A DNA stretch of 64,000 bases, from contig NC_044008.1 in NCBI RefSeq assembly GCF_900496995.4, forward strand, positions 1,650,453-1,714,452, read 5' to 3'. The DNA is from Aquila chrysaetos chrysaetos (Eukaryota > Chordata > Aves > Accipitriformes > Accipitridae). A program made the translations under genes and the position numbers. Of this stretch, positions 12,101 to 60,200 are shown one piece after another. Under the pieces are notes generated by a model. That model had not been told where the DNA came from. It worked only from the letters and a program-made list of their open reading frames with translations, and made no database searches. Every line of letters starts with the position of its first letter. The first letter of the stretch is position 1.

Positions 12101-15100
12101 TTACTGGAAACAACCCAAATCTGTCAAAACTTAGCCACAAGGAGTTTGTCTGAACCCTGTAGAGCAGCTTAATTTTGGACGAGAGTTGGAGCTTACAGCA
12201 GCAGCAAACGGGGAACATGATTAAGCAAAGCTGCTTGTGCTGAGTTAAAATTCATTATTCAGTCTGGACAAATCATTTATTTCACCTTTCCTGTAGGAAA
12301 GATGCTTGATGCCTCATTTGTTATTGCTCCGCATGTCTGATTCACTGCTGATAATTGTAACAAGCTCTAAGAAGAAAACACGATGGGTCCTAATTAGATG
12401 CTTCACTGGGTCCTGTTCCATCCTAAAAGTCCGTAAAAGAGCTGTGAGAGCAGGTGGGTGGTGAAGATCACTGGCTGCTTTGGGTGGGGGGTCTTCGGGG
12501 GATCTTCTTTTGATGTTTTTTTTGGTTTGCTCTTTATTGTCAACTGAACCAAAGCGGGCCTGTCTTGAGGTGCAACAAGCAGAGGATGTGCTTGAGAGAG
12601 TGATGGTTATGCATTGAAATTGTACATTTTAGGGGACTATTATCTATCTTCCTTCTCAAGATGAAGCTTAGACTTACTCTCACCAAAAAGCTGTTGTATT
12701 GCATAGAAAAAATGACTTTTGAAACCTTCCTGGTTTAGTCAGCTTGAGATGTTCTACATGTGTCTCACAACCAGCTCCTTTGTTCAGGGACCTGATCGTT
12801 TTCTGCTCCTTTCATCTTTCTCATTCGTTATGTGGTCCTGTGTCTTGTTGAAGAAAAACATCTACCTCTGGCACTGTGCTTGGCTCTTGCTGTGCATCAA
12901 ATTCGAGCAAGCTCGGAATTACTTTTTGATCACTTGTCAGCTGAGACTTCAGTTGCTGTTGTCCAACAAGAATATTGCTGTTTAGATTTTCCTGGACTGA
13001 ATTGGTCTTTTTATCTATTCCAGTTGAGGTCTGAGCTTGAATTGTCCTCCCCGCTTTTATTTCCATTGGCTTTTAGGGAGGAGGGTGGGTAGGCAGAGGG
13101 CTTCCTTTTGGGAAGGGCTGCGTCTGCCAGTTGTCAAGCTTAACCTGTCGGATCTCAGATGGGTTCCCTGCTACGCTCCCTCCCAGTGCAAATGCCTTTA
13201 TCTATGAGCAGATTTTACTTGCTGTATCAGACGTGTGTTGATTAATGTTTAGGAAGCTGGGGGTGTCCAAGGTGAAAGAGCCTTCTTGAGATACAAGGTG
13301 CCAGGAGCAAAAGAGAAGAAATGGAGAGAAGCTTTATGTAGGACAGAGAGCAAATCATTACTTTTCTTCTTTGTTCCCACCAGTCAGCTTTAAATATAAA
13401 CATTTTGGAAATGTTTCCTAAGTGAAATCTGCCATACAGAATGATAGAAGGGGGAATTTTTAAGATATCTTGGAAATAGCTTTTACAGAAGGATTGTCAT
13501 GTGTCGACCTGCAGACAGGCCTCTTTAGGCAGGTGTGGTCCAGGGACATGAATGAGATGGTGACACAGGGAGACTCTCCCCATTCCTGCTTGGAGAAGTG
13601 GGTCTGTCATTACAGAGCTGTTTCCTCCTGGCTGCAGACATGCTTCCCTGTGGCTAAACACCAGCCACTCTTGTTGGAGAACCACTGCAGCGGGTGTAGT
13701 CCTGACCCTCAGACACAAGCTCAGCTCCTCTGCTGGCATTTCACTGAAGCTGGTTTACCTTCTCTTTTTGCTGTAGGCCATAGGTCTCCACCAGCAAGAA
13801 GTGGCCATCGTTGCGTGGCAGATAGTGCCAACTTGTATGTGTTTGGAGGCTACAATCCTGACTACGATGAGTCCGGTGGGCCAGAGAATGAAGACTACCC
13901 GCTCTTCAGGGAACTCTGGCGGTACAACTTTGCGACAGACACCTGGCATCAAATGGGCACTGAAGGGTACATGCCCAGGGAACTAGCCTCCATGTCACGT
14001 ACGTATGGAAATTCAATTCCTATGCGTCTACTCCTGAAGCTATTTTAATCGATGTCCCTGGTGGAATGCAAAACCAGGCAAGAACTGGGAAATCTGGATC
14101 CTGTTTCCAACTCTTCTGCGAGTAGGCCTTGAGTTTGGGTTGGTTTTGTGATTTTTCTTTCCTCTTTCTCTCGGGTTGAGGCAGAGGGAAAGAAAAAATT
14201 TCAAATGCAAGAGGTAGTCTCCAGGTATTTAGCTTGATAGTTGCAAGGCACCTGCACTTTCAGCAGCTAGGTGCTCAGTGCAATCAGACACCTCAAAGCA
14301 TCCAAAAATAGATCTCTTTGTTCACTAGCCATTTTTAAAAGTAGGCCTTTGGTTACCATGGTTTTAGCTTTCATTCTTTCTCTTTTAGAGTATTTCAAAG
14401 CCATAAATACATAGTGTGAATTGTAGGGTATTTGAACAATATTGAACACTCTTTACCTAGTGACTCCAGAGCTGAGAGTCGTTCTCTTTTACCGCGTCTC
14501 GCAGCAACATGCATCTCTGCTCTGTCTCTCTCTCCTAGTTGTATTGCATGGCAACAACCTGCTTGTGTTCGGGGGCACCGGGATCCCCTTTGGGGAGAGC
14601 AACGGCAATGACGTCCATGTCTGCAACGTCAAGTACAAAAGATGGGCTCTGCTCAGCTGCCGAGGAAAGAAACCCAATCGAATCTATGGCCAGGTATGAA
14701 GGACATCCCTTGTCGAGGCACTTTGCCTGTGCCTGCATACGCTGCGCTGTGTGTCACAGAAAAGGGGCCAGAGCATGGAGATCTCTTCTCTGCTAGTAAC
14801 CAGAGTTGTTCTCTATGTACATAAGTGTAAGGGAAGGCAGATACCATTTGTAAAGAAACAGAGCAGTCTTGGTTCTTTGAGATTACAAAGGAAAAGTGTA
14901 GTTTTCTTGTAGATAGAAAAGCCAAAATTTGTTAACTAAATGCCAGGTGCAGTTGAATGAAAAAGTATGTCTGATTTAAGGAGTGGTTGGTAGTTTCTGG
15001 AGTTGCTCTCTGGCCTCCTCAAAGCCTTTAAACCCAAAACTATAAATGAAAACAGTGTTTAGTAGGTCTTGTTTGTATTAGAATAACAACTTTTAAAACT

Positions 15101-18100
15101 GTCCATAATGTCCTGGATGAGCATGGTGCACAAAAAACTAGATTCACTCTCACAGGAGGACTGCCAGCTTTTGCTGTGCTTTCCAATAATACTGCCAATG
15201 TACTTGTGGTGCAGATATTTATAACCCAACTAATTTCTCGTTTAGATGTGCGCCAGACACTTAGGGAGGAAGGAAAGTAATCTTCCCCTTGCCCAGTTCA
15301 GCTCGAGCTGGCCTTTGGCAAACAGGCAGTTGGGAGCAGAAGGAGCTTACGTCTCTGCTTCCACCTTGGACTGCATCAGGGAATGGTGCCTGCACCATCT
15401 TCACAGTGTCAGTAGGCTGATAGTCCATGTGCTTTTGAATTGTACAGGCTGTCTTTATTGTTTAGTCTGACTTATCCGCTGTGTTTGGGGCTTTCTGTTA
15501 CGCTTGATGCCACTGGCTATCTGATAGCTGGTTTGCAAGATTCTCTGTAACAGTATCCGTTTAAGGTCAGTGTGGAAGAGATTCAGGGTTAACTGTGCTT
15601 TGGTTTTAGCTCCTGGGAGCCCTTGCTGCACAGATCTGTTTTGTCTGATGCCTGAAACTTAGCAGCTCCACTTCTAGGTCCTCATCTTGTGACCACGGAA
15701 TTACTTTTCCTTCCTACAGACACCCCCCACCCCCCATCTTTTGTGTATCATCCTTGTTTGCCCTTCATATTCCTCCTGAACATGTCATTTTGTAAGTTGT
15801 AGGTAGAGCTTTGCAAGCAGTGTCTTGCCTTGGGAGGGTGGGAATTCTCTCTTTTTCAGACACTGATGTCGCACGTCCTTTCTGACTGGTTTCTCTCTGT
15901 TACCTTCCAGGCCATGGCCATCATCAATGGTTGTCTCTATGTGTTTGGAGGAACAACTGGTTACATTTACAGTACCGACCTACATAAGCTAGACCTCAAC
16001 ACTAGAGAGTGGATCCAGCTGAAACCAAACAATATGTCGTGTGACATGCCAGAGGAGAGGTGAGAAGCTGGACAGTCTCAGAGACCTTTTACACAGGGGA
16101 GTCACCACCTTTACGGACAGGTTTCTGGGCACTCTTAGAGCAGTGTTTTCAGCTGTGAACGTTGCACAACCAGTGCTCCCGCAGTCTGGCGTGCAGGGGG
16201 ATGTAGGGATGGGGTGTGAAGCCTTTGCCAGGACACTGATCTGGACTGTGTGGTGCCAGAACAGAGCTGGGGACTTGGGGCAGCTGTTGAGTGCTGAGGA
16301 GGGCAAGAGGCTCCTGTTAATCGCTGTCTCTTGTCCTATTCTGTAGCAAGGCATGGAGGAAGGAGGGCTGGGAGATCAATCAGTGACCATCTTAGTGAGA
16401 GAAGGGGCTGGATATTGATGGCCATTGTGGTGCTCCATAAATGACTGGACTTAAGTTCCATGGTGCTCTGCTCTCAGAAAATGCCTTGCAGGCTTCTGGG
16501 GTGCTGCTTAGATTGCTCATGAAAGCTTCCACATCTTCTGAATGCTCCCAACGTGAGGGACTGATACAGCATAGCCAGGCTTGGGGTGTCTGCTTAAACC
16601 ACTCAAATTTGGTAGTGTTTTCTAGAAGGCTTTTGTTGTTGCTCACTTGCAGTAATTGCTTGTGCTGCTAAATGTCCTTCTTTGCACCTTCAGATACAGA
16701 CATGAAATCGCACATGATGGTCAACGAATTTATATCTTGGGAGGTGGAACTTCCTGGACAGCTTATTCCTTAGATAAGGTAAGGCAATCAGGAACCTTGA
16801 CTGCTTGCCTGGATGGGAGATTTTCTACAGTGAAGTGTTACCAGAACGGTCTCTTCATCTCGCTTTGCCTGGAGAGCTTGGTAAAAAAATAGATAACTAG
16901 GAGCAGATTGTTCTCCTATTTCTGTAAAACCTCGTCTTGCCGCAAACATGGCCTGTTGACTTACAGATGATGAATCTGTGGTACCCAGTGACCATACCAA
17001 TCTGCAAACCAGCTTCATTCTGTAGACCTGTTATTAAAGATTCTCATTTAAAAACACTTAGGACATATTTCTAAATGTTGTGTTTGTGCAAAAACAGGAA
17101 AGTACCAAAGGAAGGAATTCCTTGATGTTAAATTCAGATGTTGATACGGTGACTCTTTTCTTGTCTTCTCCCTTAATAGTATACTTTAATTTCCTTTCTT
17201 GTGGTAAATGTTTTTTCTCCAATACAATTTGGAGAGGGAAGAGTGAATTCATCTTGAATGCCGAAATTATAGACAAGGACACTTTAAATAGTGCTCCACT
17301 TCCAAAAAACTTGAAACTGCAGCAGTTAACATGACTTTTTATCTCTCCATTCTCTGCATTTCTTTCCTCCTTACGTGCAGTATGAGATAGGTATTTCTAA
17401 ACACTTTTGAGAACTGGAGGGTGTGGGTTTTAATTGGTCCAGTTTTTTTAAAAGCAGTTTTCTTTTTCTTCAGCTGTGGGGCTCAAATAGCAAAGCCTGA
17501 GATGAAAGCTTTAGTAAGCTGGTACGCTTTGAAGGTGATTTTATACCTGCTTACTCACTGGCTGTGATTAGCTGGTTTTCGTTTTACAATTAATGAAAAA
17601 GAGGTGTTTATAGTGGCTCCCTGGGTCAGAGCCTGCAACTGCATCATTGTGGTGCTCGGAGAGCCGGGAGGAGGTAATGGCTCCTCTTTGTCCCTTCAGA
17701 TCCATGCGTACAACCTTGAAACCAACACCTGGGAGGAAATTGCCACAAAACCTCATGAAAAAGTTGGTGAGTCTGGAATTTCCCCTGTCTTCCCTTGTAA
17801 ACCAGAGAGTGGCCAAGATGCTCGAAAATGCAGTTTTCTGGCAGACTGAAAGCCTTTTTCATAACCGTGTTGTACAGTACGTGACTTAACACCGGCCTCG
17901 AGGTCCTGCTTGTTTAGAGCTTTAGCAGTGAGGACTAACCCATCTGAAGCATATTTAGCAGTCTGGCTTCTCTCCCTCCCTGGGTGGGAAAGATGATAGT
18001 GGCTGGCTCTCCTCCCAGAAGATATGCATCATCTCTTCTCCCTCTGAGGGAACACGTGCTGGCCTGGTTAGCAGCAGGGGTTTCCCTGAAACCTTGTAGG

Positions 18101-21100
18101 CCCTTGGCTGCTGCTTTTCAGCAAGCCAGAGGTGAGAGCTGGAGTCTGTGGGGAATGAGATTCTGGCACATTTCTTCCTTCCCTGGAGAGCAAGTAGGAG
18201 TCAAACCTGAAACAGCTGGTTGCTAAAGTAGAGATGTTACACCCGTGATTGTAGGAAAGCAGAAGCCCCTTATAAATGAAACAAGTGACTCCTATCCATG
18301 ACTCTATGTTGAGATATAATCACCACTTGCCCAAGCACTTTAAAGCAATTATATTTGATACTTTTTTTTTTTTTATTCTCCTCAGGCTTCCCAGCAGCCA
18401 GAAGATGCCATAGCTGCGTTCAGATAAAAAATGGTAAGATCTGCGTCTTGAAAATTGGTATATCTTATACAACTTAGCAGTGACAAGCCCATCCTTCTAG
18501 CCTGAGAGATGCTGGCCTCCGACACATGTTTGTGAGAACTGCAGGGCACACGTGTATTTTCTGGAAGAGGATTTCTTTCTTGTTAACAGGCCTTAAGCCT
18601 CCCAGTTGGCACCACTCTTCACATGAGGGATCTTGCTGCTGTAGGCAGATATACTTCTGCATTGCACAGTACTGTTGCTCTCTGGAATTCTGCAGTGTTT
18701 TAGGCAACACGTAAATCTCCTTTGGACATGTGGCCACTTCAATGTAAGATATCACGTATTTTAGCCACGAGTGTCCATGATACTTTGCAACTTACTGATT
18801 GCAAGCTCACAAACAGGTATAAATGATGCTCCTGCTACAGCTTGATGACTAACCTGTTAGCTTTGCAGTCCGCTGTGAAAAGCAAAGTGCGACCAAGTGC
18901 TGAAGCCAAGTTCTTTAGAGACAAGGTATTTTGGAGATGTCTTTGATAGGGGGTCCTTTTCGTGGTGTTGTAAATCCGAGATGCTCATATGGAGTGGATT
19001 ATGAGGCAGTAGCAGAGTTAGCACCTGAGTCTTTCCATTCTCTAGTAAAGTGAGGGCGATTTTATATGTTAGAAGCTGCACGGAGCTTAGTAGAGCCTTT
19101 TGTTCTTCACTTTGATCCTCCAAATGTTCTTGCTGTAAATCACTTGTGCGGCACTGTTTGAGGCACAGCTTAGAGAGGGCTCTTCATGTGCAATCCATGT
19201 TCAATTACCTGCAATTTTGAATGGTAGAGTGTTCCTTCAACTAGATTTGGGCCTCTCCCATAGCCTCATTGTCCTACAAGAACGCATTCCTCGAAACTTG
19301 ATAAAACAAATTGCTCATAATGGACTGAAGAAGCAGTTACAATATTGATCCTTCTTTTCAAAACTCTTCAGGTCGATGACTGAATGCTGTATATTAAAGG
19401 GTGCTGAGCCATGCAGAAGAGTGCTATGCCAGATTATATTTCTTAGGAGTGCTAATTGTGCCAATAAAAGTAAGGCAGGGGCTGGGAGATGCTTCCAGTC
19501 GCCTTCATCAGCAGTATTTTGCTGCAGTGCAAGCCTCTGAGTTGAGAACTTGGGCAAAGCTGGGAGCAAGGACCTGCCTCTGGCAGGCAGCAGGACTAGG
19601 AGCCAGGGCTGTGGCTGCTCCCCATGGGTTTAAAACCACTAGAATCTGATCAAACCCAGGAACTTATGAACTCAGGTTAGCTAGGGCTTAATACAGCTTC
19701 TTAAAGTGGGAGTTGCACTGCCGTCCTGCTTCTCAACGGCATTTAGCTCTGAATCTGCCATGGTGGGGCTGGGATCACAAGCAGGCTGGGAAATGGACAC
19801 GAGCTGGCAATGTACGCTTGCAGCCCAGAAAGCCAATTGTATCCTGGGCTGTGTCAAAAGAAGCGTGACCAGCAGGTCGAGGGAGGTAATTCTTTCCCTC
19901 TGCTCCACTCTGGTGAGACCCCACCTGGAGTACTGCGTTCAGCAAAAGAAAGACGTGGACCTGTTGGAGCAGGTCCAGAGGAGGGCCATGGAAATGATCC
20001 AAGGGCTGGAGCACCTCTGCTATGAAGACAGGTAGAGAGAGCTGGGAGTGTTCAGCCTGGAGAAGAGAAGGCTCTAGGGAGACCTTACTGCGGCCTTTTA
20101 ATGTGTAAAGCAGGCTAACAAGAGAGATGGAGAAAGACTTTTACCAAGGCCTGTAGTGACAGGAGAAGGGGCAACAGTTTTAAACTGAAAGAGGGTAGTT
20201 TTGGATTGGACATAAGGAAGAAATGTTTTATGGTGAGAGCGGTGAGACACCGGAGCAGGTTGCCTAGAGTAGCTGTGGATGCCCCATCCCTGGAAGTGTT
20301 GAAGGTCCAGTTGGATGGGGCTTTGAGCAACCTGATCTAGTGAAAGGTGTCCCTGCCCATGGCAGGGGGGTTGGACGAGGTGGCCTTTAAAGGCCCCTTC
20401 CAACCCAAACCATTCTGTAATTCTATAAGTGGCCTCTGTGATTATGAATAGTGTGCTGGGACTGATTTGAGAGGTACTGAGAGCTTGTGTTGAGGTAAAA
20501 TAATTGTTGATCATAAAGCTGTTTTGGAAAGGTGATCGCTGACTTCAGTCACTGCATGTTCTGCAAATGCTGGATGAAGGATGGCTGGGCCTGTAAGCAC
20601 CATGGGTTTCCTCTCTTACAGATGTGTTCGTTTGTGGAGGCTATAATGGAGAAGTGATTCTGGGAGATGTTTGGAAGCTGAATCTGCAAACTTTCCAGTG
20701 GGTCAAGCTCCCAGCTGCCATGCCGGAACCAGTGTATTTTCACTGTGCTGCTGTCACACCAGTAAGTGACTCATTTCTTTCCTATGTAGCTGAAGTTCAA
20801 GCCATTCATTCAAGCACTCTGACATTTGTGTGGGCTGCAAATAGAGCTGAACCGATGTTACCAAGGAGGTGACCTCCACTGGATGCAGCATCTTTAGGCA
20901 GGCTGAGGGCTGGTGTGAGGTCACTGCCTTGACTCCTTTTACTCCTGCTGCTGTTTAAAGAGCGGTAGCACACAGTATATTCTGCTTTCTGAAAGCAGTG
21001 ATGCGGCATTTTAGCTTTTAAACCGTATCAGCTTCAAGGAGTAATTCTATGTGTGAACAGCAGTTCCTGTTTGCAAAAGGAGAAAAAGCACAAATACTCC

Positions 21101-26897: not shown

Positions 26898-26903
26898 TTT
26901 AAT
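26898..26903 (-). terminator. possible polyadenylation signal ATTAAA (CAX gene)
   Basis: TTTAAT on the plus strand reads ATTAAA on the minus strand, about 500 bases after the exchanger's stop codon. It is the nearest plausible poly(A) hexamer I see; other sites are possible. Confidence 0.3.
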
Positions 26904-27397: not shown

Positions 27398-30300
27398 TCA
27401 GCAACCACTGGGCGACGGGGCGAAGAAATACACAGCCAGGAGGATGAAGTAGACCATCACCAGCACTGTGCCTAGGGCAGACAGAGCAGGTTGGAGGGGG
27501 TTACTCCCTGGAGCAAGGAGGGAGGTTGCTTTTAAGACCTGGTGTGGTCTGGATTAGCCCACTGTAGAGGACTTTCATGGTCCTCTGCAAAATCTCAATT
27601 AAAAGGGGTTTAAACTCCCTATTAAGGGTGAAAAGGGAGTCTTGGAACTGCTACAGGGCGGCAGCTCCAGCTCCTCCGAGATGGTCAACCAAGACCCCAG
27701 AGTTGCTCAAGCCACCACAGGCCAAGAGCTGCAGCAAGCAGCTGACCCCAGGGCTGTATCCAGGAGCCCCCCACCCCATCAGCACAGGGAATGTGGGTAC
27801 ACCAAGTCCCACAGCAGCCTCACGGGCGAGCGGTCACCTTGGAAGTAGTCACATTTGCCATCCATGAAGATGTAGTTCATGAGCACCACGCTGAACATGC
27901 TGGCGTAGACGTGGAGGTCACTGAAGACAAGCGTGAAGTTGGTCGGCTGCGAGGCAGAGAGGATTTTGGATTTACGGCCAACCAGGACAGCCCTGCACCA
28001 ACTGCGGTTGGAGACTTGCACATGACCCCTTGAGCCCCCTTTGCCACATGTCCCTAGGGCTGGGGACAGCATCGGCCAAGGTAGGAGACATCTGACCCCA
28101 TCCTCCCCTGCACCGAGCACAGGAGAGGAGACACTGGGGATGGTGGCCGTGCCTTTGCCACGTCTCACGGAGCGCTGCATGTCCCCAGCCCCGCTGTAGG
28201 AGGTCACCCAGGGGCTGTCCTGGGGGTACTCACATAGAAGATGGTGAAGAGCACCAGGATGGGGATCTGGAGCATGCAGACCTGGACGGCGATGCAGTTC
28301 CCAATCTCGATGCTGGGGAGGACAGAGGACTTAAGAGCTGCCAAGCACCAGGTCTCCAGCAGCCCTTAGGTTGGTCAGCTCAGGGTGAGAAAAAATCCAC
28401 CTCGGGGAGCCAAATCGTGCAGCCCAACCTGGTTCTGGCCCCATTTTTTGGGTGGCTTTAAGTCCCCTTGAGGGCAAGTTGGCAGGGATCGGACCCACCA
28501 GCGGCACGAAGCTGGGCAGCCCATCACTGGCACCAAGGCACAGCTATGGGACTGGGACAGGGCACAGGGACCACGCTGGAGGAGGACACCCCAAAACCCA
28601 TCCTTTTGAGCCATCTCACCTCAAGCTCAGGTTGTTCTGCAGGGCAAACTGGATGCCGTTGACGATCTCTGGCAGCTCAGGCACCATCGCCAGTACAGTG
28701 ACACCGATGAAGTACTGCAGGGAAGAGGTGACATCAGCGCACGCATATGGCCTGATCCTGACCACATCCAAGCTGTGGGCAACCAAGCTCCTCAGCGCGT
28801 GGAGCATCTCAACATCTTTCCCCCAGCTTTTGAGGCTCAACCCCGCAGGCAGGGCAGGTTCCCATCCCTGGAGGGCACATCTTGATCCCCAGGGCCACCC
28901 AAACCCGGGTCACCACCATCCCCGTCCCCACACTCACCTGTGAGATGGTGGAGTTGGTGAGGATGGGGCTGATGTGCTCCGTGGCCAGGTCAGCACAGGC
29001 TGACATGCAGAGGGTGGAGAGCAGGAGGATGACCAGCGCCCGCCAGCGAGACCAGTGGACCACAGCACTGTGGTGGTGGCCAGGCACTGGGGGAAGAGCA
29101 GAGAGGCGGTGGGACGGTCTGGGGTGGTGAGAAGAGCCAGCCCCACAGCCGGGGCATCCTGCGGTTTGGGGACACTCACTGTGACAGTCGCTGATGTGGA
29201 TGTCGTAGATGTGCGAGTGAGTTTTCAGGGTGAAGAAGAGGCCGATGAGGTAGGCGGCAGGGAGCAGGAGGGACACCGTGTACACCAGGGGTCTGTGGGA
29301 TACGGGTGACACGCGCTCAGTGCCACCAGGGTCTGGCGTGGAGACCCCAGGGGTGGTCCCCTGGGGATGGAGGAGGTGGGGTGCTGGATCAGAGCCCTTC
29401 ACTGGGGGGCTGAGAGGGGACCTGGGAGGGATGCGGGACCATGACCAAGCCCAGGAGATGCCACCCCAACGTGGGGACAACCCTGTCCCCACCCCAGCGG
29501 ACACTCACTGGACGTGGCTGTAGTAGAGGGTGCCGTTGTTCTCCATCTGCAGAGAGAGAGTGTGCCTGTCAACGGGGATGCCGGGGACAAGGGACAGTCC
29601 CGCTGCCACCGCCCGGCATGAGAGCAGGAGCCAGGTGGGCTCAGAGCATCCCCGACCCCAAACCCCGGCGGTCAGGGGTCCACGTCCCCACTCACCAGGT
29701 CAAAGTGACAATTGTGGCAGAGGTAGTGGCCCAGCGGGTTCTGGGTGACGTTGTGGCACTCGCCGCACACCAGCTTCCCGTACACCTTGGAGAAGAGCGT
29801 CGGGGCAAAGACGCCTGCGGGGATGGAGGGACACGGCGTGGGCACCCACGCTCGTGGGACCCCCCCCAAACCTGGGGACACCCCCGTCGCCAACTCACCT
29901 CCCACAGAGAGGAAGAGCAGAGCCGAGCTGACGCCCGCCGAGCGACTGTTGAACCGTTGCTCCTGGTGCCGGATGCCCCCGATCACCATGCACAGACCCT
30001 TGGGGATGGAGAAAGCCCCCCCCCCCAAAAAAAAAAAAATCCCCTTCGTTGCTTCGCTCACAGCATCCTCCCGGCTCTCTGCCGAGACCGGGCGCTCTCA
30101 CGCCACGAGCGTGCCGCCCCATCTCACCGGGACGAAGAGGACGCAGCCCACCAGCGTCCCCGTCAACGCCGACTTGACGATCTCGGCGTAGCAGCGGTTG
30201 CCCTCACGCGAGCCCTTGATGAGGGCCGTGATGTAGAAGGTCAGCTCCGTGATGGAGCCGAACGTGGCGTTCACCACCGCTCCCACCGCAAAGTTGCTCT

Positions 30301-33034
30301 GGGCCGAGATGCTGGAGGAGAAGGAGGGCGTCAGCGGGGCTGGCACGTGCCCCCACCTTGCCCCCAAGCGTCCCTCCTGTCACCGCTCACCTGGCAATGG
30401 CCATCCCGATGTAGTAGGACAGAGGCATGATGGAGAGCAGGGCCAACGTGAACTTGACGGGGGAACTGGTCAAGTGGTTGTGGCTGTCCACGTAGCCCAG
30501 CACCAGTGTCACCAGCACCAGCGGCAGCAGGTCTGGGGTGGCCGGTCAAGGAGATGACCGAGGTGGGGTGGGATTTGGGGACAGCCCCCCGCACCGTCCC
30601 CACTCCAGTCCACGAAAGGATACTGACAGCAAAGACGTTGATGCCGTCCACGGCGTATTTGTAGTAGTAGGGGTTGACGGCGCGGTAGCAGCAGAGTATC
30701 ACCTCCCCCTCCAGCGGCACCTCCGTCTGCAGAGGGACAAGTACCCCGAGCATCCCCCCCCACCCCAAAATCCACCCCGGAGCGGGGTGCGGGACCCTCG
30801 CCCCCACACAGAGGCACCCACCATCCTCAGGCGCCGGACGAGCACCCGCTCCGGGGGCAGCAGCAGGACGCGGGCGGCAGCGCGGGCGCTCAGCTTGGCC
30901 ACGGGGATGAGGACGATGAGGAGCCACGCGGTGACGCACACTAGCCCGTGGGCCAGCGCCAGCGCTGGGTAGCCCAGGCACAGCCACGCCACAGCGCCGG
31001 CACGCTGCTGCAAACAGGTAACTGCCTTTAGGGTTTGCCCCCCCTCAAAACACCCACCCCAGCGGAGCGGAGGCACCCATGGGTGCTATCCCCACCACGA
31101 TGGGGGGCTCCCGGGGTGCCCAGGCTCAGGAAGGGGGGTGTCACCGTGTCCGGCGTGGGGCTCACCCAGTATCTGGCGTCTGCCCAGCACCATGGGCGCC
31201 AGCGGCGCGGCACGGGACCACCGAGCAGGGCCGAGCTCTCCCCCGCGCCGGCCTCGCACGTGCCCAGCGCCCGGCGGGATTTGGGGACCTGGGGGAGACG
31301 GGGTGGGGGGGGTATCAGGATGCGGTATGGGACACCGCAGTTTATCCCCCAGTGGGGTCCCAATTCGGGGCACGCCGTTACCTCCACTTTCTGGATCACT
31401 TTGCCAAAGGGCCAGAGGAAATACCCGGCCAGGTCCCAGCAGAGCCACCCTGTGGGGACACGAGCATCAGCTCTGTTGGGGGGACACATGTCCCCTCCAG
31501 CTACAGGGCCACCCCGCAGGGAAGGGACCCAAGAGATGCCAGCACCCATCAGTGCCGTCTCAGGCTCAGCCAGGAGACCCACGGCTCACCCAGCCCTTCA
31601 CATGGGGGTCCCAAACTTGGGACTCACCATAAGAAGCCCCCACAATGGTGACAAACATCGTGGCAGCCACAAGGACATAGAGGAGTGAGAGCCACCAGCC
31701 GAAGAGCAGCAGGTAGAGGACGTTTCCACACGTCACCGTGGACCCTGCGGGATGGGAGGCACCGGATGGGACCGTTGTCACCTGCAACAGCCCAAATCCA
31801 CGCTGCCACCGCAGGGGGCTGTCCCCAGGGCCACCCACCTCCAGAGCCCCGGATGACATTGAGGTCAGAGTAGAGCTCCTTGACGATCTCCGATCGGTCC
31901 TCCCAGGGCCGCGCCGTCACGTGGCTCTTCCATTTCTTGAAGCCAAACTGCAGCGAGATTTTTTTTTTTTTTAATTATTATTTTTTGGAGGGTGGGATGA
32001 GAAAAAGAAAACCCATTACAGCCATCCGGGAGCACCCCTGGGTGCCCTCACCCATGCCACAGGCACCCACCTTGTAGTTGTTGGAGAGCTTGTTGGCCTC
32101 CACGACGTTTTCGGCTGTCAGGGTGGTTTTCACCACGCAGCTCTCGCAGACCTCGTCCGAGTGCTGCTGGCAGCAGGACGGGGGGGACAGGGCTGCGGGC
32201 GAGACGGAGGGTGACAAGGGGTGCGGGATCCCCCCCACCCCGCTGCCCTGCGTCCAGCTCATCCCACACGGCCGACCTACCTGGGGGGACGCGGGGACGG
32301 TGCTGGTGGCAGCCCAGGTCACCCAGGTCACCCTGCACGTTGTTGATGGTGACGCAGTGCCGGTCGCAGAGGGAGCCCCGGCGGGGGCCATCGCTGTCAC
32401 CCGGGGGCTCGGTGGCCTTGGGGACATCTGCGGGGGGGGGGGGGGGGGGGTTGAAGTCACACTAGGGCTGTATCCTGCCCCGGGCTCAGCGCTGCAGGAC
32501 ACCTGGGTGCTGCTGTGCTGGGATGTCACCCTGGTCCCCAAACCCCACGGGGGACACACAGAGCTCCTGGGGCGGTACCCAGGGGATGCTCGGGAGGGGG
32601 GGGACGGACACCCCCCGGTGCCCGGTGTGATGCTCGGGAGGGGGAACCCCCCAGTACCCGGCATAGGGGGATGCCCCCCGGTGCCCGGTGTGATGCTCGG
32701 GAGGGGGGAGACCCCCCCCAGTGCCCGGCATAGGGGGAACCCCCCGGTGCCCGGTGTGGTCCTTGGGAGAGGGAACCCCCCCGGTGCCCGGTGCGATGCC
32801 CGGGAGGGGGGGACCCCCCCGGTGCCCGGCACAGGGGGATGCCCCCCGGTGCGATGCTCGGGAGAGGGGACCCGGGACCCCCCCGGTGCCCGGTGTGATG
32901 CTCGGGAGAGGCGAACCCCCCCCGCCGGTGCCCACCCGACCCCAGAGACCCCCCCTCCCCGGCCGCTCACCGGGCGCATCCTGCGTGCAGCAGCAACAGC
33001 AGCGGCGGAGGCCGGGCTCACCCTCGCTGGCCAT
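27398..33034 (-). CDS. CAX-family cation/proton exchanger, type II (Vnx1/cax1-like), 20 exons
   Basis: Predicted proton-coupled antiporter moving Ca2+ or monovalent cations across an internal membrane (vacuolar type in fungi and plants). Exons, minus strand: 33034-32971, 32427-32281, 32192-32071, 31947-31839, 31744-31628, 31449-31382, 31288-31166, 31007-30822, 30726-30624, 30532-30391, 30311-30128, 29998-29899, 29814-29696, 29546-29509, 29292-29180, 29086-28938, 28714-28620, 28312-28234, 27946-27838, 27471-27398. Every junction is GT/AG and phases agree throughout: 2241 coding bases, 746 residues, stop TGA 27400-27398. A hydrophilic cytosolic N-terminus (about residues 1-148) precedes 13-14 hydrophobic segments. 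Alpha repeat 1 is GAVVNATFGSITE at 404-416; alpha repeat 2 is PELPEIVNGIQFALQNN at 640-656, followed by SIEIGNCIAVQ. Both carry the family's acidic and asparagine residues. Length and layout fit type II CAX rather than the shorter plant CAX or mammalian NCX/NCKX. The frame is intact, so I see no sign of a pseudogene. The true substrate is not knowable from sequence. Confidence 0.9.
28620..28714 (-). CDS. CAX exon 17: alpha-repeat 2 core
   Basis: Encodes YFIGVTVLAMVPELPEIVNG and the following IQFALQNNLSL. The PELPEIVN segment is the second ion-binding signature (c-2) of CAX exchangers; glutamates 641 and 644 and asparagine 647 are the expected transport-pathway residues. The exon ends in phase 2 (AG) and joins the C of exon 18 to make serine 660. 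Confidence 0.9.
28938..29292 (-). CDS. CAX exons 15-16: histidine-rich loop and flanking membrane segments
   Basis: Exon 15 (29292-29180) encodes a hydrophobic helix ending in GLFFTLKTH; exon 16 (29086-28938) begins HHHSAVVHW and continues into another helix. The join gives a short loop, residues 566-589, with eight histidines plus aspartates and one cysteine. Histidine-rich loops between transport helices are common in metal and proton antiporters. The role here is inferred. Confidence 0.85.
29696..29814 (-). CDS. CAX exon 13: CxxC...CxxC loop
   Basis: Encodes GVFAPTLFSKVYGKL, then a hydrophilic loop with cysteines 505 and 508 (CGEC) and 521 and 524 (CHNC), separated by 12 residues. This spacing resembles a zinc knuckle or rubredoxin-like metal site. 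It lies between two hydrophobic segments, so it is a loop insertion and not part of the transport core. Confidence 0.88.
30128..30311 (-). CDS. CAX exon 11: alpha-repeat 1 core
   Basis: Encodes SISAQSNFAVGAVVNATFGS and then ITELTFYITALIKG. NATFGSITE is the type II version of the first CAX ion-binding signature (c-1). Glutamate 416 is the expected conserved acidic residue. Ends in phase 0 after VLFVP. Confidence 0.92.
32430..32450. repeat. poly(G) tract next to CAX exon 2
   Basis: Run of about 20 G on the plus strand (poly(C) on the gene's strand), forming the polypyrimidine tract for the exon 2 acceptor at 32429-32428. The run length is prone to sequencing error. Confidence 0.7.
32585..32935. 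repeat. minisatellite, roughly 40-base unit, CAX intron 1
   Basis: About seven imperfect copies of a unit with the words GATGCTCGGGAG, GGGGGAACCCCC and GGTGCCCGGTGTG. Anchors (GATGCTCGGGAG or close variants) start near 32585, 32629, 32691, 32755, 32795, 32853 and 32899. It lies wholly inside intron 1 of the exchanger. The long open frames across it on both strands are artefacts of the repeat. Confidence 0.88.
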
Positions 33035-33240
33035 GGCGGGGGCGGCGGCGGTGGTCCCGGAGGTGGGGGGGGGGACGGACGGACGGATGGCTGGGATGTC
33101 GGACCGGCCCGGCCCGCCGGTATTTAACGGGTGGTGCCGGGCATGCGCCGGGCGGGGCCCCGGGAGCCGCCCCCGCTTCCCAGCGGGAGGAGCCGGGACC
33201 GAACCGCCCCCGCCGGGGGCGGGGATGCGCCGTGTAACGG
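33035..33240 (-). promoter_or_regulatory. CAX CpG-rich promoter and 5' UTR
   Basis: Extremely G+C- and CpG-rich sequence upstream (to the right) of the exchanger's start codon at 33034-33032, with repeated GC-box-like GGGCGGGG words on one strand or the other and no TATA box. The start context on the minus strand is purine-rich and followed by G, a good Kozak match. Exact start of transcription unknown. Confidence 0.5.
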
Positions 33241-33760
33241 GGATGCGGGGGAACGGGGATACGGGGCGGGGGGGGATACGGTGAACGGGGGGGGGTTACA
33301 GCGGCACAGGGGTGCAGGGGGATCCGGGGTGCGCGGTGTACGGGGGTGCACGGGGACGGGGACGCAGAGGAACCGGGGTGCGCTGTGGGGGACTCGGGGT
33401 GCGCAGGAACGGGGCGGGGGGGGGGTGCGCGGTGTATCGGGGTGCGCAAGGACGGGGATGCGCGGGGAGCGACGAATCCGTGCGAACAGGGATCGGGGCG
33501 CACAGCGATTTGGGGCGCAGAGGGACGGGGGTACACGGGGATCCGGGGTTCACGGTGTACGAGGGGACACGGGGCTCTGCGCCGGGAGCGGGGTGCAGGA
33601 GAATCCGGGGTGCGCCGGCACTGGGGTGCGTGGTTTATCGGGGTACACTGGGAACTGGGGTTCACAGGGACTGGGACGGCTGGGGACCAGGGACCGTGGT
33701 TTATCGGGGTGCACAAAGGACCTGGGCCGGTGGGGAAGAGGTTGCGCAGGATCCCGGAGG
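33235..33760. repeat. G-rich minisatellite upstream of the CAX gene
   Basis: Imperfect array of short units built on GGGGTGC(A/G)C(A/G)GGGA and GGGGATCCGGGG. Many G runs of 3-8 could form G-quadruplexes. Long proline/arginine- and glycine-rich open frames run through it on both strands because stops are rare in this composition; they are not genes. Confidence 0.75.
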
Positions 33761-35490
33761 GGGGCACGGGGATCCCGAGAGTGCGTGGGCTCCCGGGGCT
33801 GCAAGAGCGGGACGGGCTCTTCTCGAGAAACACCCATTTTTTTTTGGTCAAAGAAGAAAATTTCTGCACGTAAAGAGCCTTTCGCACACGAGAGTAACTG
33901 AGTTCGAGGGGCGAAAGGCAACGGGGACAGCCCCGCGCTGCCTTCAGGGTGCGAGATTTGGGGTTCTTGAATGTTCCTCCTTGGTACATCGATGCTGAAC
34001 CGCAGGAAAAACTCGAAACAAGCGTTTAATAAAACGAACTCATTTAATACGGGAACCAAATGAGCCATTTTGTTATCAGTCCCTTCAGAAAAACCCTGCA
34101 CCTCCCCGGGGAAACGGAGTCGACAGTAACAGTCGGTTCGCACCAAAAAATAGCAGCTCCCTCCCAGAGATAAAAAAGCGAGCACACCTCGCCCTGAGCA
34201 CAGAAAATTCCTCTTTTTCCCTCCCGGCAGTGCGTGCCTGAGGCCGGCAGTAAAAAATACAGTACAAAAATACATTATTGTAACAAAATACGTGGTGTTC
34301 TTGCCCCCGGCAACAAGCCAGGGTAATTCTCATGTCTTAGATGTACAAGTTTACGACGATGTTGTTCACCCTTGTCTTCAGCTCATAAATATCTTCAGCA
34401 TCTTGGGGCTTAGGAATTTTTACCCCTCTTTAAAAAAATAACTAACTACTAAAACTAACTATATACACTTCTAAAACCCTCATTTGTCAGAATTTACAAC
34501 AGATTCTTCCTTTATATAAAAAGGTTTTCAGCAAATATCGAATGACCTCTTCTTTGAAAGAAATCCAAGTGTTTTTTTCCTCCCAAAAGGTACATCCCCA
34601 AAAGCGGGGACTTAAAAAGTCCACCGGTTTATACAGCCGGGTCTCTCGCCGAGGTGCTGAAAGCCATGTGGCAGTCCGTAAGGCTCCCAAAATAAGAGGT
34701 TATTAGCAAAAAAAGCTGACGGGAGCCGTAAAAATCAATTAAAAAGCAAAGGCAGGGTAACACTGTGGTTGTACCAAAGGCACCCGGTATTTCAGAGCTC
34801 GCAAGACTGCCAATGTTGGGTGGCATGCTTACTTTGTACAAAAAAATAAAAATAAAAATCTTACTTACTGAAACCAGCAAGTCAAACATGGTTTTCTCTT
34901 TCCTTCACACCTTTTTGTGGGGTCAGAAAACCCAATTACACCAACAGCCAGGGATAAAAAAATAACCTTTTTCTTATCATAATAAAATGAACCAAAATGA
35001 GTCTAAACTTTTTGGCTTGGCTCTTCTCGTGCCTATCTGGAATTTCTTGCATCCCAAAGTTGGCCAAATTGCTGTATCTTTCCAAGCGATGGCTCGCTGG
35101 CGGCTGTGCACAACCTCGGGAGGGCTCTTCCAGCCCTCCAAGGCGTTGGAGTTTAGTCCCAAGATCAGTTAAGCGGTGACGGCACTGACAGATCCGTGGA
35201 AGAGAAACAGCAAACGGCTTTTTGAACAGGGTTCGTTCAGGTGAGGAGCCGGAAAAAGAAAACCCGCCTGGTGTTCATATGTAGTAGCGTTTTGACCGTG
35301 AAATGTTTTAAATAATATCATCACAAAACCTGCACAGGAGTTACAAACACTTCCCCTCCTCCCACAAAGAAGAGCTTAAATTATCCCGTTTCATAGTAAG
35401 TCCGCGTTTAAGTCAACAATGTAATGGTGTCGCTCAGTTCATCTTGCCAGAGGAGCATCGTTCCTCTGAACCGGCATCCCGCTGGAGATG
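33761..35490 (-). other. TMEM209: spacer and TMEM209 3' UTR
   Basis: After the G-rich array the composition drops to A/T-rich near 34000. Two ATTAAA hexamers on the minus strand (plus-strand TTTAAT at 34025-34030 and 34043-34048) are plausible poly(A) signals, giving TMEM209 a 3' UTR of about 1.45 kb. No coding frame is seen. Confidence 0.5.
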
Positions 35491-46414
<10,924 letters not shown>

Positions 46415-48540: not shown

Positions 48541-49668
48541 CTAACTCGCCGTCGTGCAGAGCCACACGTTGCTGTGTTTATGCTGAGTTGGCTGTATAAC
48601 TAAATTAATTGATTGCACGTAGTAATGTATATCAGAGCATGCATTGCCAAGGTCAACAGTTAAAGATTTTGGGTCTGTTTGCGCGCTGTACGGGTGGAAA
48701 TTCATATTTCTGTCCTGAAATCCTGTAAATGAAGAGGGTTGTGTGAATTTCGTGCTAAATCGGTGTATACAGAAGGTATTACCTGAGGTAAAGGTGGTCC
48801 CATTGGATAAGGTGGCTTGGGTGACAAGCTTGTCTCGTATGACTGGGTGGTAAATCGCGCAACATTGCCAGTGTGGTGACATACTGACTTAATCTCAGTG
48901 ACGTTTTCATGTGATATGGCCTTTTGAGGCAAGAAGAGCAGGGTATGTCTAAAGATGGGAAGAATTGGGAACCAGCAAGGTGAGAGGAGCTGGACCTGGC
49001 CCGCGGCAGCATATTGAGCTGAGGTGGCTGCAACAGCTCGTACAAGACAGGGGCAGCAGCTCTGCAAAAGGAAGATTATCTGGGATGTTCTGCTTATCTG
49101 GGTTATCCAGTCTGTTTCTTAATTTTCCCCACTTTGCTTCCAGTTTGGGTAAATGCAGAATATTCCAAGTTGCTCTACTGTTATTCTGTTATAAAGAGCT
49201 GGTTATAGGAAACATATGGTAATAAAAACACAGTTGGAGAAAGGGAGGAGAGAAACTTAAACAGGCTGAAAGTTCATTTGGTAGATCTAGGCCAATGGGC
49301 GAATTCAGTTGGTTTGAAAGTCTCTTGACTTTGACTCATTTCCTAAGCAAGAGGATGAAAGCAAGAAAAGCATGAAATGGAGATAATATTGAAGGACTGT
49401 TAAAAACCTACTTTGGCCTTCTAGTCTTAAACAGTGATGCGAGGATGGGGTGAATCGCTTTTTATCAGTTACAGAGGAAGAGGAGTCTTGTGGTGCAGTT
49501 CCCAGCCTTGACACAGCTCAAGTGAGAGGAGATGAATCCCACCCAACATCCCCAAAACAAGAGATGGTCAGCTGGGTAACAGGTTGCCGAGGGGCTGCTC
49601 CGAACGCGGAAACGCTCACCCCTTGGAGAGGGGACAGCCCCGTGTCCCAGGTCCAGCGACGAGGCTCC
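48541..49668 (+). other. SSMEM1: SSMEM1 upstream region
   Basis: Between the shared CpG island and the SSMEM1 coding start. The end of it, from 49453, is open in the SSMEM1 frame and has an in-frame ATG at 49564 with a strong context (G at -3, G at +4). No other gene or repeat is recognised. Confidence 0.45.
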
Positions 49669-52600
49669 ATGGGATACCCTTTTTCCTCTCTTGGGTGGTA
49701 TTACTGGCAGAATGACCCCGTGCTTTCTGGCGCTCATCGGAAACCAGATGAAAGGGAATATGATGAGGAGGAGGAAGGCTTTGGGGGGATCAGAGGGAAA
49801 ATCCTCCTTTGCTCCTGTGCTGGCATTTTGATTATCTGTCTTGTCTGTTGTGCTCGAGTAAGATATTTAATTCTGTGTTTTCTGCTGACACCTGCTGGCT
49901 TTTAGCAGAAGGTTATTGTGGGCTTACACAAAACTTTCCTGCCTAAAAGTCTTTCACAACCTCGGAAGTTGTTATTTATAATTATCTTATGGGATGATGT
50001 CACTGTTAGAACTGCTCTTTAATCTCCAGGTATAGGTAACTGATTGTATCTCTCCCAGTACCCTTCTTGTTATTACCAGTTACAATTCATCTGTGTGCTT
50101 GCTGTCCTAAAATGCAAAGCTAAAACATGATCCGATGGAGTGTGTGGTGCGTTATAAACTGCTGTATGACTCAAACACATGAAATCCGGGGACAACCCTG
50201 GGAAGTTGAAGGTCTTCATTTCCTAATTTAAGGAAATTTGAGTTGGAAAAAAGTAGCTCCACTGCGGTCAGTGTTGTTGCACTGGCATATAGCTGCAGAT
50301 TTTCCAGAGAGATCAAAATGAGGGTTCTGCTTCTAAAATGGTGCCAGTCACATCTACGAATGGTGAGCCACATACTGAAATCCCTACTCATTCTTTATCC
50401 AGGGCATACCCAAGGTGCCTTGCGGATTAGGAACATGGAAATAATCCATTACTTACAGAAATAATAGTTCTCTCACCAGTAATCCAAAATTAATTGCTTT
50501 ATAGCCAATTAACTTTGATCATCTAGGAGATGAGTTGCAGACGGAGCCCTTTGCCATGTTGGTGTTACAGCTCTAGCTCGAGAAGATGAGAAAAGAAACA
50601 TTTCTATCCAAAGGCGAAATGTGTGTGGGATTTCCAAGGAATATGGGCTTGTTGAGAGTCTCAGTAGAAATGGCGAAGGCATGAGGGCTCCCCTCTTGGC
50701 TGCGTTTTCCTGGGGCAGGGGCTGGCAGGGCTCCCTGTGCCGTAGCTGTGTGAGGACCAGTCAGCCTCACATCCCAGGGCCTCTCTCACAAGCTCACACA
50801 TGCTTTATAGAATTAGCATTATATAAGGAATTAAAGTTTATATGTTGTTCTAAGTAACATCATCTGTACAATGTTATTTCCCTGAAACAGATTCTCCAGA
50901 AAGTCCAAGGTAAAAGATTATATTCTGACAAAAGGGAGAGCAGTTCAAAAGGTAAATATGAGTTTTGCAAGTTACGTGTAGAGTTCAAAAAAGCATTACA
51001 GAAAATGCCCAGGACCCTGTGAGAGAGCAGGGGGCAATGCAGAATGTAAGTGGAGAGGGCAGAGGGGACAAGTGGGCCAGCAGGAGCACAAGAAAAGCTC
51101 AGTCCAGCATGGGTCGTCTCCCCTCTCTTCCCCCTTCCTACTGAATTGCCAAACACTTATTTTGAGAGGATGGGAGACGAGGGGGACTGTGGGCTTGAGC
51201 TCAGTCACGCTGTGTGGGTACGGCAAGGACAGAGGCTGCCTCTTCCTTCCTAACTGTGATAGGAGAGACTACTACCCTGTATCTTGGTTGCAAGAACATT
51301 TTTTAGATAGGGGCAACAACAGAGGGTCCAGACTTTACAGAAAAGAACTGACTCCACCTAAATTTGATGACTTTTGAGGCCTTTCTAGTTGGTAGGGGGG
51401 TCATATATCGGTATGGCAATTTTAAGCAACGAGACGAAATTTGGTTAGATGATATTCATTTAACCTTTCACTTCTTAACATGTCACCACTGCATTCGTGA
51501 TTCACTGCATGATACCACATCCTCTTAGGACTGTGTGGAGAGTACGTCCCACCCTGCCCACATTAAGTGTGCCAGGGCCTGGAGAGCGCTAATTGCCCTG
51601 AGTGGCCTCGTGGGGCCCCCACCCACATACCCTCCGCCCCTTGGTGTGGGAGCTGCATTTAAGCTGAGGCCATTCGTTTTGGTCCTTCTTTGAGTTGCAG
51701 TGGGTGCATGGTGGACTTGTAGCTCCTGATATCCTGGCTGTGGACCTGCTGTGTGAGTGTGGACTTAACCTGAGGATCTGGATTGTGGTTGTTCCTGGTC
51801 AGTGCCACCAGACCTGCTCTGCTCCCCTCGTTTGGGTCCCATGGGGCCATGCTGCTTGTGGTGAGCTCTCTATCCCTGCCTGCCTTGCTGTCACCTTTGG
51901 TTTCTGGCTTGCTGTGGCAGTGCACCCCTGCTCTTGCTGCTCCCTAATTTGGGTGTTTTGGTCCCTGAGCGCTACAGAGGCTTTCAGTCTGTGCAGAACT
52001 TTGCCCATAGGACTTACCCTGTGGTTCAAGGCTGGTCTCCAAACCCTGCAGGACCTTATGGCTACGGCGGGAGGGCACAGTGCTGCAGGCTTCTGTAACT
52101 CCTTCAGTGGGGATTAGGAGTGGGTATAAAGGTTTGGGCTTAAATGCAAGGGGTGGAGGCCCCAGATGAGACTAGCCAGGGCACTTGAAGCTTGTTGGTG
52201 TACTTCAGACCTTGGCATCATGTTTGGCGGGATCTCTTGGCAGCCTTTAAATCCATGCAGGATGTAGCATGAGTAATGAAGCAAGCTATAATTTTGCCCT
52301 AAATTAAGTCCCTCCTTCCTGTTTTCAAAGAGTGAATCCACAGGAGGTAGTGTGGACAGTCTGTTGGTTCTTTATGAAATGTTGAAGGCCATAGCTAGAG
52401 GTGGGATTTGACTTCCACCAGAATTACTGTAGTGCTAGAAGCAGGAAATCCTCGTGATGGTTCCTGTCTCTTCGGATAAACTCGTGTTATCCGATTTACG
52501 TTGAGGGGAGTGGAGATCTGCTTGTTTCCCAAGGACTGGGTTAGGTTAAACCTCAAAGACCTGGGGACTTGCAGGAACATACCTTACCTCACTGCAGAGC

Positions 52601-57200: not shown

Positions 57201-60200
57201 ACTATAAAATTCTAGGTTATTACTGTTCTTATTGCCATTGGTGAGAATTTTTATTCTTACTTTGAACAGTATAGAAATGAAAATTTAGAAAAGCCCTACC
57301 AAAGGAGAAATTAAAGGAGAAATAAAAACAAAACAATGGGTTTCATATTACCTAATACTGTAATACAGAGCTTTTCTTGAAACTGTTTGTGGTAAAAGGG
57401 AGAATAGTAAAATAATCATAGAATCACAGAATGGTTTGGGTTGGAAGGGACCTTAAAGACCATCTAGTTCCACCCCCCCTGGCATGGGCAGAGACACCTT
57501 CCACTAGACCAGGTTGCTCCAAGCCCCATCCAACCTGGCCTTGAACACTGCCAGGGATGGGGAATCCACAGCCTCTCTGGGCAACCTGTTCCAGTGCCTC
57601 ACCACCCTCACAGTGAAGAACTTCTTCCTTATATCTAATCTAAATCAACATTCTTTCAGTTTAAAGCCATTACCCCTTGTCCTTTCACTACATGCCCTTG
57701 TAAAAAGGGCATAATCATCATAGAAGACTAAAATTTCCTCTTGCTTGTATGACTGAAGCTCTGAAGTCAGTGAAAATGCTGACTTTAGTCTTCTGCAGAC
57801 CTTTGTTATTTTTATTGTGAGTTTGTCACATTAACTGATACAAGGTTGTGGTGAGGCCAAGCTAAAGAATGGAGCGTGCTGTAAGCATGACGGGCCACAA
57901 TACTGCAGGAGCCATTCAATTTGGGACAAATCAGCATCTCTAAAGCTTTAGAAGAGCTGTTTGCAGAACGCTTTCCCCAAACCAAATCCTTTTTCCTTTC
58001 TCTTTTCAGCTTGATTTCTGGATAAATCCGTCCACCCCTGCCCTCCCTGTGGATGTGCGAATCCCCGCTAACAGCGTCCAAGCAGTCAAAGCCTTTCTGG
58101 AGTCCCATGGGATTGAGTACTCCACCCTGATCGAAGACCTGCAGGTAGGCAATGCTACTTGGCACTTATTTAGCTTTTATATCCTTTGGAAACAAATAGT
58201 GATTCACAATCTGGCCTCATTCATTAACATGGACTCTTCTATACTCTGCTTTCCGTGAGGTCCTCCCCTTATTTTTTGTAATCTGTGGATTAATTTCTCA
58301 AAGACGATCTGTGGATTAATTTCTCAAAGACGATCTGTGGATCACTGCTGCACTGGGAAGCTGTGGAGATCACTCTGCAGATGCTATCTGAAACCATGCT
58401 GAATAGTGACATGAATAAACTCATAGGCTCCATGGGGTTGTTCTGATAACCCCTGAGGAATTTCGTGTGGTCTTTTGGCCTCGGACGTTTGGAAATCACA
58501 ACACTAAAGTTACTCATAAATCAGTAAACTCTGTTAAAAGTAGTTCAGGATCATGGTCTGAAAGAACTGCACACCACCATGTTAGAGTAAAGTCACCCAC
58601 CTGGGCACTAATCCAGCATTTCTTCATGAGCAGTAATCCCAAAATGGCATCTAAAATAGCATTAACTCAGCAAAAATACTGCCTTCCCCCCCCCCCCCCC
58701 GCCCAAGCTTTTCAATGCTATTCTTGTTCATCTTAAGACATGTTTAAAACTTAATGCTGACCATTTGAACACTGGTATTCTTGCCCACTTTGCTACAGAT
58801 ACATTCAGCAGAAACATGTCTTTGCTCCATAGCTGCAGGAAGTTTGGGTCTGGGGCTGGAGTCAGTATGCAGCACCACCATTTCATTATTCGAGATAAAC
58901 ATTTGGTCAGAAGTTTGCAAATTAAGCAGGCTTTTCTCAACATTTGAGTGTCTTCTTTTAGGTTGTTCTAGATAAAGAAAAGCAAGATATGGCCTGCAGT
59001 CAGCAAAGGGATCGCAGCAGCAACAGCTTCAACTATGGAACTTACAATTCTTTAGATTCTGTGAGTACCTCAGCTTTGGGGAAAGAGGATTCTTTATTAT
59101 GCCCTTTTTTCATGCTGTCTTCAATTAAACATCCTATATTAGGATCTAAAATGTCGTTCTATCTTCTTTTGGCGTGTTTTTAAATATATTAATTTTGTGG
59201 TCAGCACAATGAGCCAGCGCTCTCCCTGACAGAATGTTGTAACAGGCAAGTGTTGACGATACTTTTTCACACACTCTTCTGCAGAGTTCTGTCAAAACAC
59301 TTCCTTCTGACCCTCAAAAGCGATTGAGAAATAAATGAATCTTGAAATAGGGAAATATAGGAAACCAGTAGCTATCCAGCAGAGCAGAGGGTAAGGTATT
59401 TTTATTACCAGAAGCTCTTAAAGAGGGTTTTGAACTTATTCCTGAAATAAGTAGATCTTGATGATATAGCAGTGCTTCCTTCTACTTTGTAATGTTAGGA
59501 ACAGCACTGACTACACTGACATAAGGTGAGACGGGGCTTTGAAGAGGTCATAGTAATGAAGGCAAAAGGAGAGAAAAGTAGATTTCATCAAGTCCTATAA
59601 CTGTTCTGGGCAGTACTATACTTAAATGTAATGTAAATGTCATCATGACTTTTCATTTCAGATTTATGCCGAACTCGATCATCTTGCATCTGAGTTTAGC
59701 AACATTGTCAGTAAGCTGAAGATTGGGGAATCCTATGAAAAGCGGCCTTTGTATGTGCTCAAGGTATGACACATAACATATCACAGAATGTGTGCATACA
59801 TATGTGTATACATACACTAACATACATATGAATTATAGATACAGCACAATTCAGTCCAAAGCATCCCAGTCTGTATGGGATGTTCTTGACTGAAAGGTGT
59901 CAGTGAGAGTTTTAAAACTTTGTCTTGTTTGGCAGTTCAGCACTGGAGGAAGGAACCGTCCCGCAATCTGGATTGATGCTGGTATCCATTCCCGAGAGTG
60001 GGTCACCCAAGCGAGTGCAGTGTGGATAGCTAAAAAGGTCACTTCAGCAGTGATTGGTTTTTTTTTCTTTTATCTTGGGAATGCCTCTGACTATTTAAAA
60101 GTATATCACACCTGCATGTGTTTAGCCAGCTCTGCTAACTCCCCTTCACCCCTCTTAAAACACAGCTGACTCCAGAGGGAAGATGGCAGCTGCCTAGACA

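Follow-up and report, generated by a model that had tools for sequence, protein, structure and literature searches.

The gene described here lies on the minus strand of a 64,000-nucleotide window of the Aquila chrysaetos chrysaetos genome (NC_044008.1; all coordinates are positions within this window). We found that it encodes an intact, Vnx1-like type II cation/proton exchanger (CAX), probably of an acidic-organelle membrane, where the proton gradient of the V-ATPase would drive lumenal uptake of a cation from the cytosol, Ca2+ being the most likely one; we put the probability of this reading at roughly 0.7. Gene structure, domain make-up, conserved glutamates, conservation and descent are directly established, and the fold of the closest listed orthologue is predicted. 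The mechanism is well supported by this fold and by the ion site, while cargo and organelle are suggested by analogy.

The gene model was built by picking minus-strand coding pieces from a list of open reading frames (ORFs) and then enumerating splice sites and phases. The expected count of 20 exons was known in advance from an earlier sequence-only reading of this DNA (hereafter the original prediction), which contained no exon list. One consistent model was obtained, running from 33034 to 27398 in 20 exons (2,241 nt; 746 codons plus stop). It has matching exon phases and no internal stops or frameshifts, and its 19 introns, of 79 to 543 bases, all have GT donors and AG acceptors, the weakest-looking donor being that of exon 9 (TCA/GTATCC). 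Both CAX signatures are present, NATFGSITE at residues 408-416 and PELPEIVNG at 640-648. The rebuild shows the original prediction to have been right about the coordinates, the 20 exons and an intact 746-codon frame with GT/AG borders and both signatures. The coding sequence has 22 and 11 stops in the other forward frames and 4, 28 and 40 in the reverse frames, and none of 1,000 dinucleotide shuffles was free of stops (mean 15.4, minimum 5). Its GC content at codon positions 1, 2 and 3 is 0.58, 0.43 and 0.87, and that of the introns is 0.65. Intron 1 contains a GC-rich minisatellite (32606-32923) with overlapping periods of 26, 38, 63 and 102 bases. A processed pseudogene was considered and rejected in view of the 19 introns and the open frame.

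The domain content of the protein identifies its family. Pfam places a YccF domain (PF03733) at residues 153-203 (63.7 bits; cut-off 27) and Na_Ca_ex (PF01699) in two stretches (81.1 bits; cut-off 24.9). These two alpha-repeats, each with a glutamate conserved in 54 of 54 sequences (E416 and E644), are those of the CaCA superfamily; within it, the protein is closer in both sequence and fold to H+/Ca2+ exchangers than to NCX, as befits a CAX. The long hydrophilic N-terminus and the YccF domain ahead of the exchanger point to the type II, Vnx1-like class. The YccF domain is a mark of type II CAX and occurs in fungal Vnx1; our literature search on YccF together with Vnx1 or type II CAX found no relevant report. 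We file the bird protein as a type II CAX, an identity that the original prediction had proposed and that the YccF domain, the two Na_Ca_ex repeats and the core fold support. NCX and NCLX show a weaker likeness in sequence and fold; the orthologue P0002, for example, scores 25.6 bits with TIGR00367 versus 170.9 with TIGR00378. In a structure comparison that barely covers the YccF part, the predicted core of the orthologue listed as closest adopts the fold of the type I proteins yeast Vcx1 (4k1c), Bacillus YfkE (4kjr, 4kjs) and Arabidopsis CAX1 (9vsa, 9vsc, 9vsd), whose PDB chains have 351 to 471 residues versus 746 in the bird protein. Yeast Vnx1, the namesake in database annotations of listed homologues, is likened to it by annotation, domain and class, and the matches listed in our homologue searches include no fungal sequences.

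A database search with the window protein gave 741 matches, and the 120 listed are all sauropsid (107 avian, 13 reptile), most of them spanning at least 90% of the queried residues 80-746. The original prediction had turned on orthologues in other sauropsids, and these reveal strong conservation. Annotations of the listed proteins include VNX1 protein, putative cation exchanger C521.04c and Cation/H+ exchanger protein 1, with many called uncharacterized protein; many of the avian entries are flagged as partial and at least one as low quality. Median identity to the avian proteins (86 to 107 of the 107 per region, after exclusion of rows with less than 80% of the region aligned) is 98.1% in the core (331-746), 92% over residues 111-210, 88% over 256-330, 81.5% in the N-terminus and 70.7% in the linker (211-255), which provided an internal gauge of weakly constrained sequence. 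For each of the 11 junctions from 9/10 to 19/20, the 12-residue stretch around it is matched at 10 or more of its 12 residues in 87 to 107 of the 107 avian proteins. By the same measure, recurrence at the earlier junctions is 14 (1/2), 28 (2/3), 104 (3/4), 82 (4/5), 24 (5/6), 75 (6/7), 10 (7/8) and 82 (8/9) of 107.

The gene is also found well beyond the sauropsids. A further search, run with the length window moved (120 listed of 210 matches), returned an echidna protein at 87% over residues 330-746, as well as proteins from axolotl, teleosts (of two kinds), molluscs, starfish and a glass sponge (Oopsacas). An echidna query further yielded proteins of platypus (Cation/H+ exchanger protein 2), koala, frogs, newt, caecilian and coelacanth, and among its 120 listed of 740 matches there was no placental protein. 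This pattern of listed matches agrees with, without proving, the absence of CAX from placental mammals, in which it is reported not to be found (PMC6321814). The original prediction had held that mammals lost the gene at this locus. Because echidna, platypus and koala carry CAX, the loss cannot have taken in all mammals; for placentals, the claim is consistent with the listed matches. A search for prokaryotic relatives, with three type II peptide patterns against genome contigs, gave 37 stretches and no relative; it reaches only relatives bearing the motifs.

A tree of 47 rows (46 picked from 246 listed matches, zebrafish left out, plus the window protein), whose outgroups the program flagged as far and on long branches, joins the window protein with Anas (100/99), then Apteryx (100/100), crocodile (92/80, not starred) and the sauropsids (90/92). 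Further out follow the mammals (amniotes 100/99), the amphibians (tetrapods 99/98) and the coelacanth (99/93). The cax1-like and cax2-like proteins, the two teleost paralogues, are sister groups (100/97), which makes the bird gene a co-orthologue of each. The reading that the bird gene has an older paralogue in teleost cax1 is rejected on this sister grouping, and the pair fits a duplication among ray-finned fish. Orthologues from reptiles, monotremes, koala, amphibians, coelacanth and teleosts share with the bird protein its architecture of YccF and Na_Ca_ex domains, the invariant glutamates and vertical descent, and most rows also have a four-cysteine loop.

The ion site is where the bird protein departs from the type I structures. 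In YfkE, E72 and E255 are reported as essential, with the polar residues N69, N99, N252, H256, S278 and Q281 close by (PMC10227063, where Q252 is printed as well as N252; the YfkE sequence in our alignment has N). Our alignment retains three of these eight residues (E72 as E416, E255 as E644 and Q281 as Q670), so that the site is not that of a type I CAX; N69, N99, N252, H256 and S278 become S413, C450, E641, I645 and I667. S413, E416, E644 and Q670 are invariant in 54 aligned sequences. Of the other positions, 641 is acidic (E or D) in 53 sequences, 645 holds I, L, V or M and 450 C, T or S in all 54, and 667 is isoleucine in 46. Thus Ser, Cys/Thr/Ser, Glu/Asp and a hydrophobic residue replace three Asn and the His of YfkE, and the second repeat has PELPE in place of the GNAAEH of type I proteins. 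Since the surroundings of the two carboxylates are unlike those of type I, the cargo cannot be read from Vcx1, and since five of eight residues are changed, Ca2+ should not be assumed to be the sole cargo.

A second departure is the M5-M6 loop. Residues 500-545 lie between the two stretches that align with YfkE, and residues 498-546 between the two that align with Vcx1; both structures have a shorter connection here. The four cysteines of the loop are present in 53 (C505), 50 (C508), 52 (C521) and 50 (C524) of the 54 sequences, a few distant rows deviating at C508 or C524. At least one N-x-S/T sequon occurs in the loop of 52 of 54 (all but tuatara and P0227). For residues 498-541 we counted 116 sequons in total, versus 31 on average and at most 46 in 200 shuffles, which treat related sequences as independent; the N-terminus (30 versus 57.5), linker (23 versus 20.1) and histidine-rich loop (6 versus 6.8) show no excess. 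The whole core (340-742) has 268, including the 116, versus a mean of 129 and a maximum of 156; the excess extends beyond the loop because conserved motifs such as NATFG, a chance N-A-T fit, are also counted. The predicted proteins of platypus and tuatara (P0229, P0244) are without most of the four-cysteine loop, perhaps through gaps in the gene predictions. The cysteines and sequons also occur in the glass sponge and in code-named rows that we take for single-celled relatives.

One membrane span past this loop, residues 565-592 form a histidine-rich loop (LKTHSHIYDIHISDCHMPGHHHSAVVHW; 29051-29230) that aligns with the acidic loop of Vcx1 and sits at the position of its acidic helix. All 54 sequences have H566 and W590, and each histidine of the HHH cluster is retained in 28 or 29 of 54. 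The acidic loop of Vcx1 is described as cytosolic (PMC10866540); because the histidine-rich loop matches it one span away, we infer that the four-cysteine loop is lumenal. These features raise the possibility, which we regard as tentative and rather improbable, that animal and near-animal type II CAX constitute a distinct functional class, with a remodelled ion site and a lumenal, glycosylated CxxC...CxxC loop that senses, or gates in response to, lumenal redox state, metal or pH, and that this class was lost in placental mammals.

The mechanism that we favor for the bird protein can be outlined as follows. The protein would reside in the membrane of an acidic, lysosome-like organelle, and the V-ATPase gradient would power the import of the cation by alternating access, with E416 and E644 alternately binding protons and the cation. 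A regulatory role is probable for the long N-terminus and the YccF segment, and the M5-M6 loop may form a disulfide-bonded, glycosylated lumenal cap. Several facts weigh against this proposal. Five of the eight YfkE site residues are changed, and P0002 falls below the 211.15-bit cut-off of TIGR00378, the NCBIfam equivalog for typical CAX. The structure model is modest (mean predicted local distance difference test score, pLDDT, 59.8; predicted template-modelling score, pTM, 0.50), with pLDDT of 53 to 57 in the blocks over the four-cysteine loop, whose cysteines could form disulfides or bind zinc. The Xenopus and zebrafish proteins are likened to the bird protein by report, their sequences lying outside the listed rows, and the bird gene is known here from its sequence. 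Finally, the type II protein of yeast, Vnx1, is reported to swap vacuolar H+ for K+ or Na+ (PMC6539216), versus the Ca2+ that we consider most likely for the bird.

This last fact speaks for the view that the same gene and fold mainly carry a monovalent cation, K+ or Na+, and so set lysosomal or Golgi pH and salt, not Ca2+ stores. The YccF domain favors this view, as does the replacement of GNAAEH by PELPE, with its acidic residue for N252 and hydrophobic residue for H256. However, both Ca2+-binding glutamates and the glutamine are retained, Xenopus CAX is reported to import Ca2+ into mammalian lysosomes (PMC10866540), and animal CAX has been linked to lysosomal Ca2+ signalling (PMC4982074); we judge monovalent cargo unlikely. 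A Ca2+/H+ exchanger mainly of the Golgi or another secretory compartment seems to us doubtful as well: the four-cysteine loop with its sequons would fit any secretory lumen, but the animal CAX of Xenopus has been placed at lysosomes (PMC4982074). That the gene is decaying or an assembly chimera, open in appearance in this one genome, is very improbable. The repeat-laden, GC-rich first intron, the one weak donor, the partial and low-quality avian entries and a gene read from DNA letters alone could be cited in its favor; against it stand a model without stop or frameshift, the invariant site glutamates, the homologues in birds and reptiles, most of them near complete, and the median core identity of 98.1% to the avian ones, a degree of protein conservation that speaks against decay.

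The surroundings of the gene (Table 1) bear out the original prediction that KLHDC10 and TMEM209 flank it. KLHDC10, on the plus strand, and the CAX gene, on the minus strand, are therefore tail to tail, and the four pieces of PF09786, which we take to be the family assigned to TMEM209, lie upstream of the CAX gene in the same orientation (21.2 to 35.1 bits; only 42358-42774 exceeds the cut-off of 27.3). In human, KLHDC10 and TMEM209 are adjacent. To the right of TMEM209, the plus strand holds pieces of a zinc carboxypeptidase A-type gene (57944-62022; PF02244, PF00246). A plus-strand ORF at 49438-49902 has a hydrophobic stretch and gave no match in a Pfam search; by the human gene order, it could be SSMEM1. 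Scans of the whole window for tRNA and Rfam families gave no matches.

Table 1. Features of the CAX locus and its neighbours, with the basis of each assignment.
Feature	Coordinates	Strand	Basis
Type II CAX gene, coding span, 20 exons, 746 codons	27398..33034	-	spliced model, Pfam, homologues
Exon 1, ATG in good context (CCGCCATGGC), hydrophilic N-terminus	32971..33034	-	spliced model
Exon 2, variable N-terminus	32281..32427	-	spliced model
Exon 3, variable N-terminus	32071..32192	-	spliced model
Exon 4, conserved FGFKKWKSHVT segment	31839..31947	-	spliced model, homologues
Exon 5, bulk of YccF domain (whole domain, residues 153-203)	31628..31744	-	spliced model, Pfam
Exon 6, YccF domain end	31382..31449	-	spliced model, Pfam
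Exon 7, variable linker	31166..31288	-	spliced model, regional identity
Exon 8, hydrophobic segment 266-284	30822..31007	-	spliced model
Exon 9, exchanger core begins	30624..30726	-	spliced model
Exon 10, core	30391..30532	-	spliced model
Exon 11, first alpha-repeat, NATFGSITE, E416 (YfkE E72)	30128..30311	-	spliced model, alignment
Exon 12, core	29899..29998	-	spliced model
Exon 13, M5-M6 loop: C505, C508, C521, C524, sequon N510	29696..29814	-	spliced model, alignment
Exon 14, M5-M6 loop end, sequon N532	29509..29546	-	spliced model, alignment
Exon 15, M6 and beginning of histidine-rich loop (probably cytosolic)	29180..29292	-	spliced model, alignment
Exon 16, histidine-rich loop end and M7	28938..29086	-	spliced model
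Exon 17, second alpha-repeat PELPEIVNG, E644 (YfkE E255)	28620..28714	-	spliced model, alignment
Exon 18, Q670 (YfkE Q281)	28234..28312	-	spliced model, alignment
Exon 19, core	27838..27946	-	spliced model
Exon 20 with stop codon	27398..27471	-	spliced model
ATTAAA, candidate poly(A) signal of CAX gene	26898..26903	-	consensus match only; sole minus-strand AATAAA/ATTAAA from 24000 to stop codon
GC-rich stretch upstream of ATG, CpG observed/expected 0.87-1.03, likely promoter region	33000..33999		base composition
KLHDC10 kelch-repeat exons, neighbour	13464..20869 (extent of pieces seen)	+	match to Kelch domain-containing protein 10, PDB 9d8p, E 1.5e-153
TMEM209-family (PF09786) exon pieces, neighbour	39402..44240 (extent of pieces seen)	-	four Pfam matches

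The bird CAX gene is real and conserved, and it is already known and annotated. The original prediction saw in a working avian antiporter an under-described route of organellar cation handling, but CAX genes in birds have been published (PMC4982074) and are annotated in many birds (107 of the 120 listed matches). It was right to name zebrafish but overlooked the functional work on Xenopus (PMC4982074). A thin search of open-licence literature, judged by titles and abstract openings of the papers listed, found no functional study of an avian CAX.

How placental lysosomes are filled with Ca2+ is debated, and TMEM165 has been put forward as the human lysosomal Ca2+ importer (PMC10866540). Birds, reptiles, monotremes and at least one marsupial have this exchanger intact and under strong constraint, so that a comparison with placentals can be put to the test. 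If animal type II CAX do form a distinct functional class, placental mammals would have lost that class and would have had to use another route for loading their lysosomes with cations.
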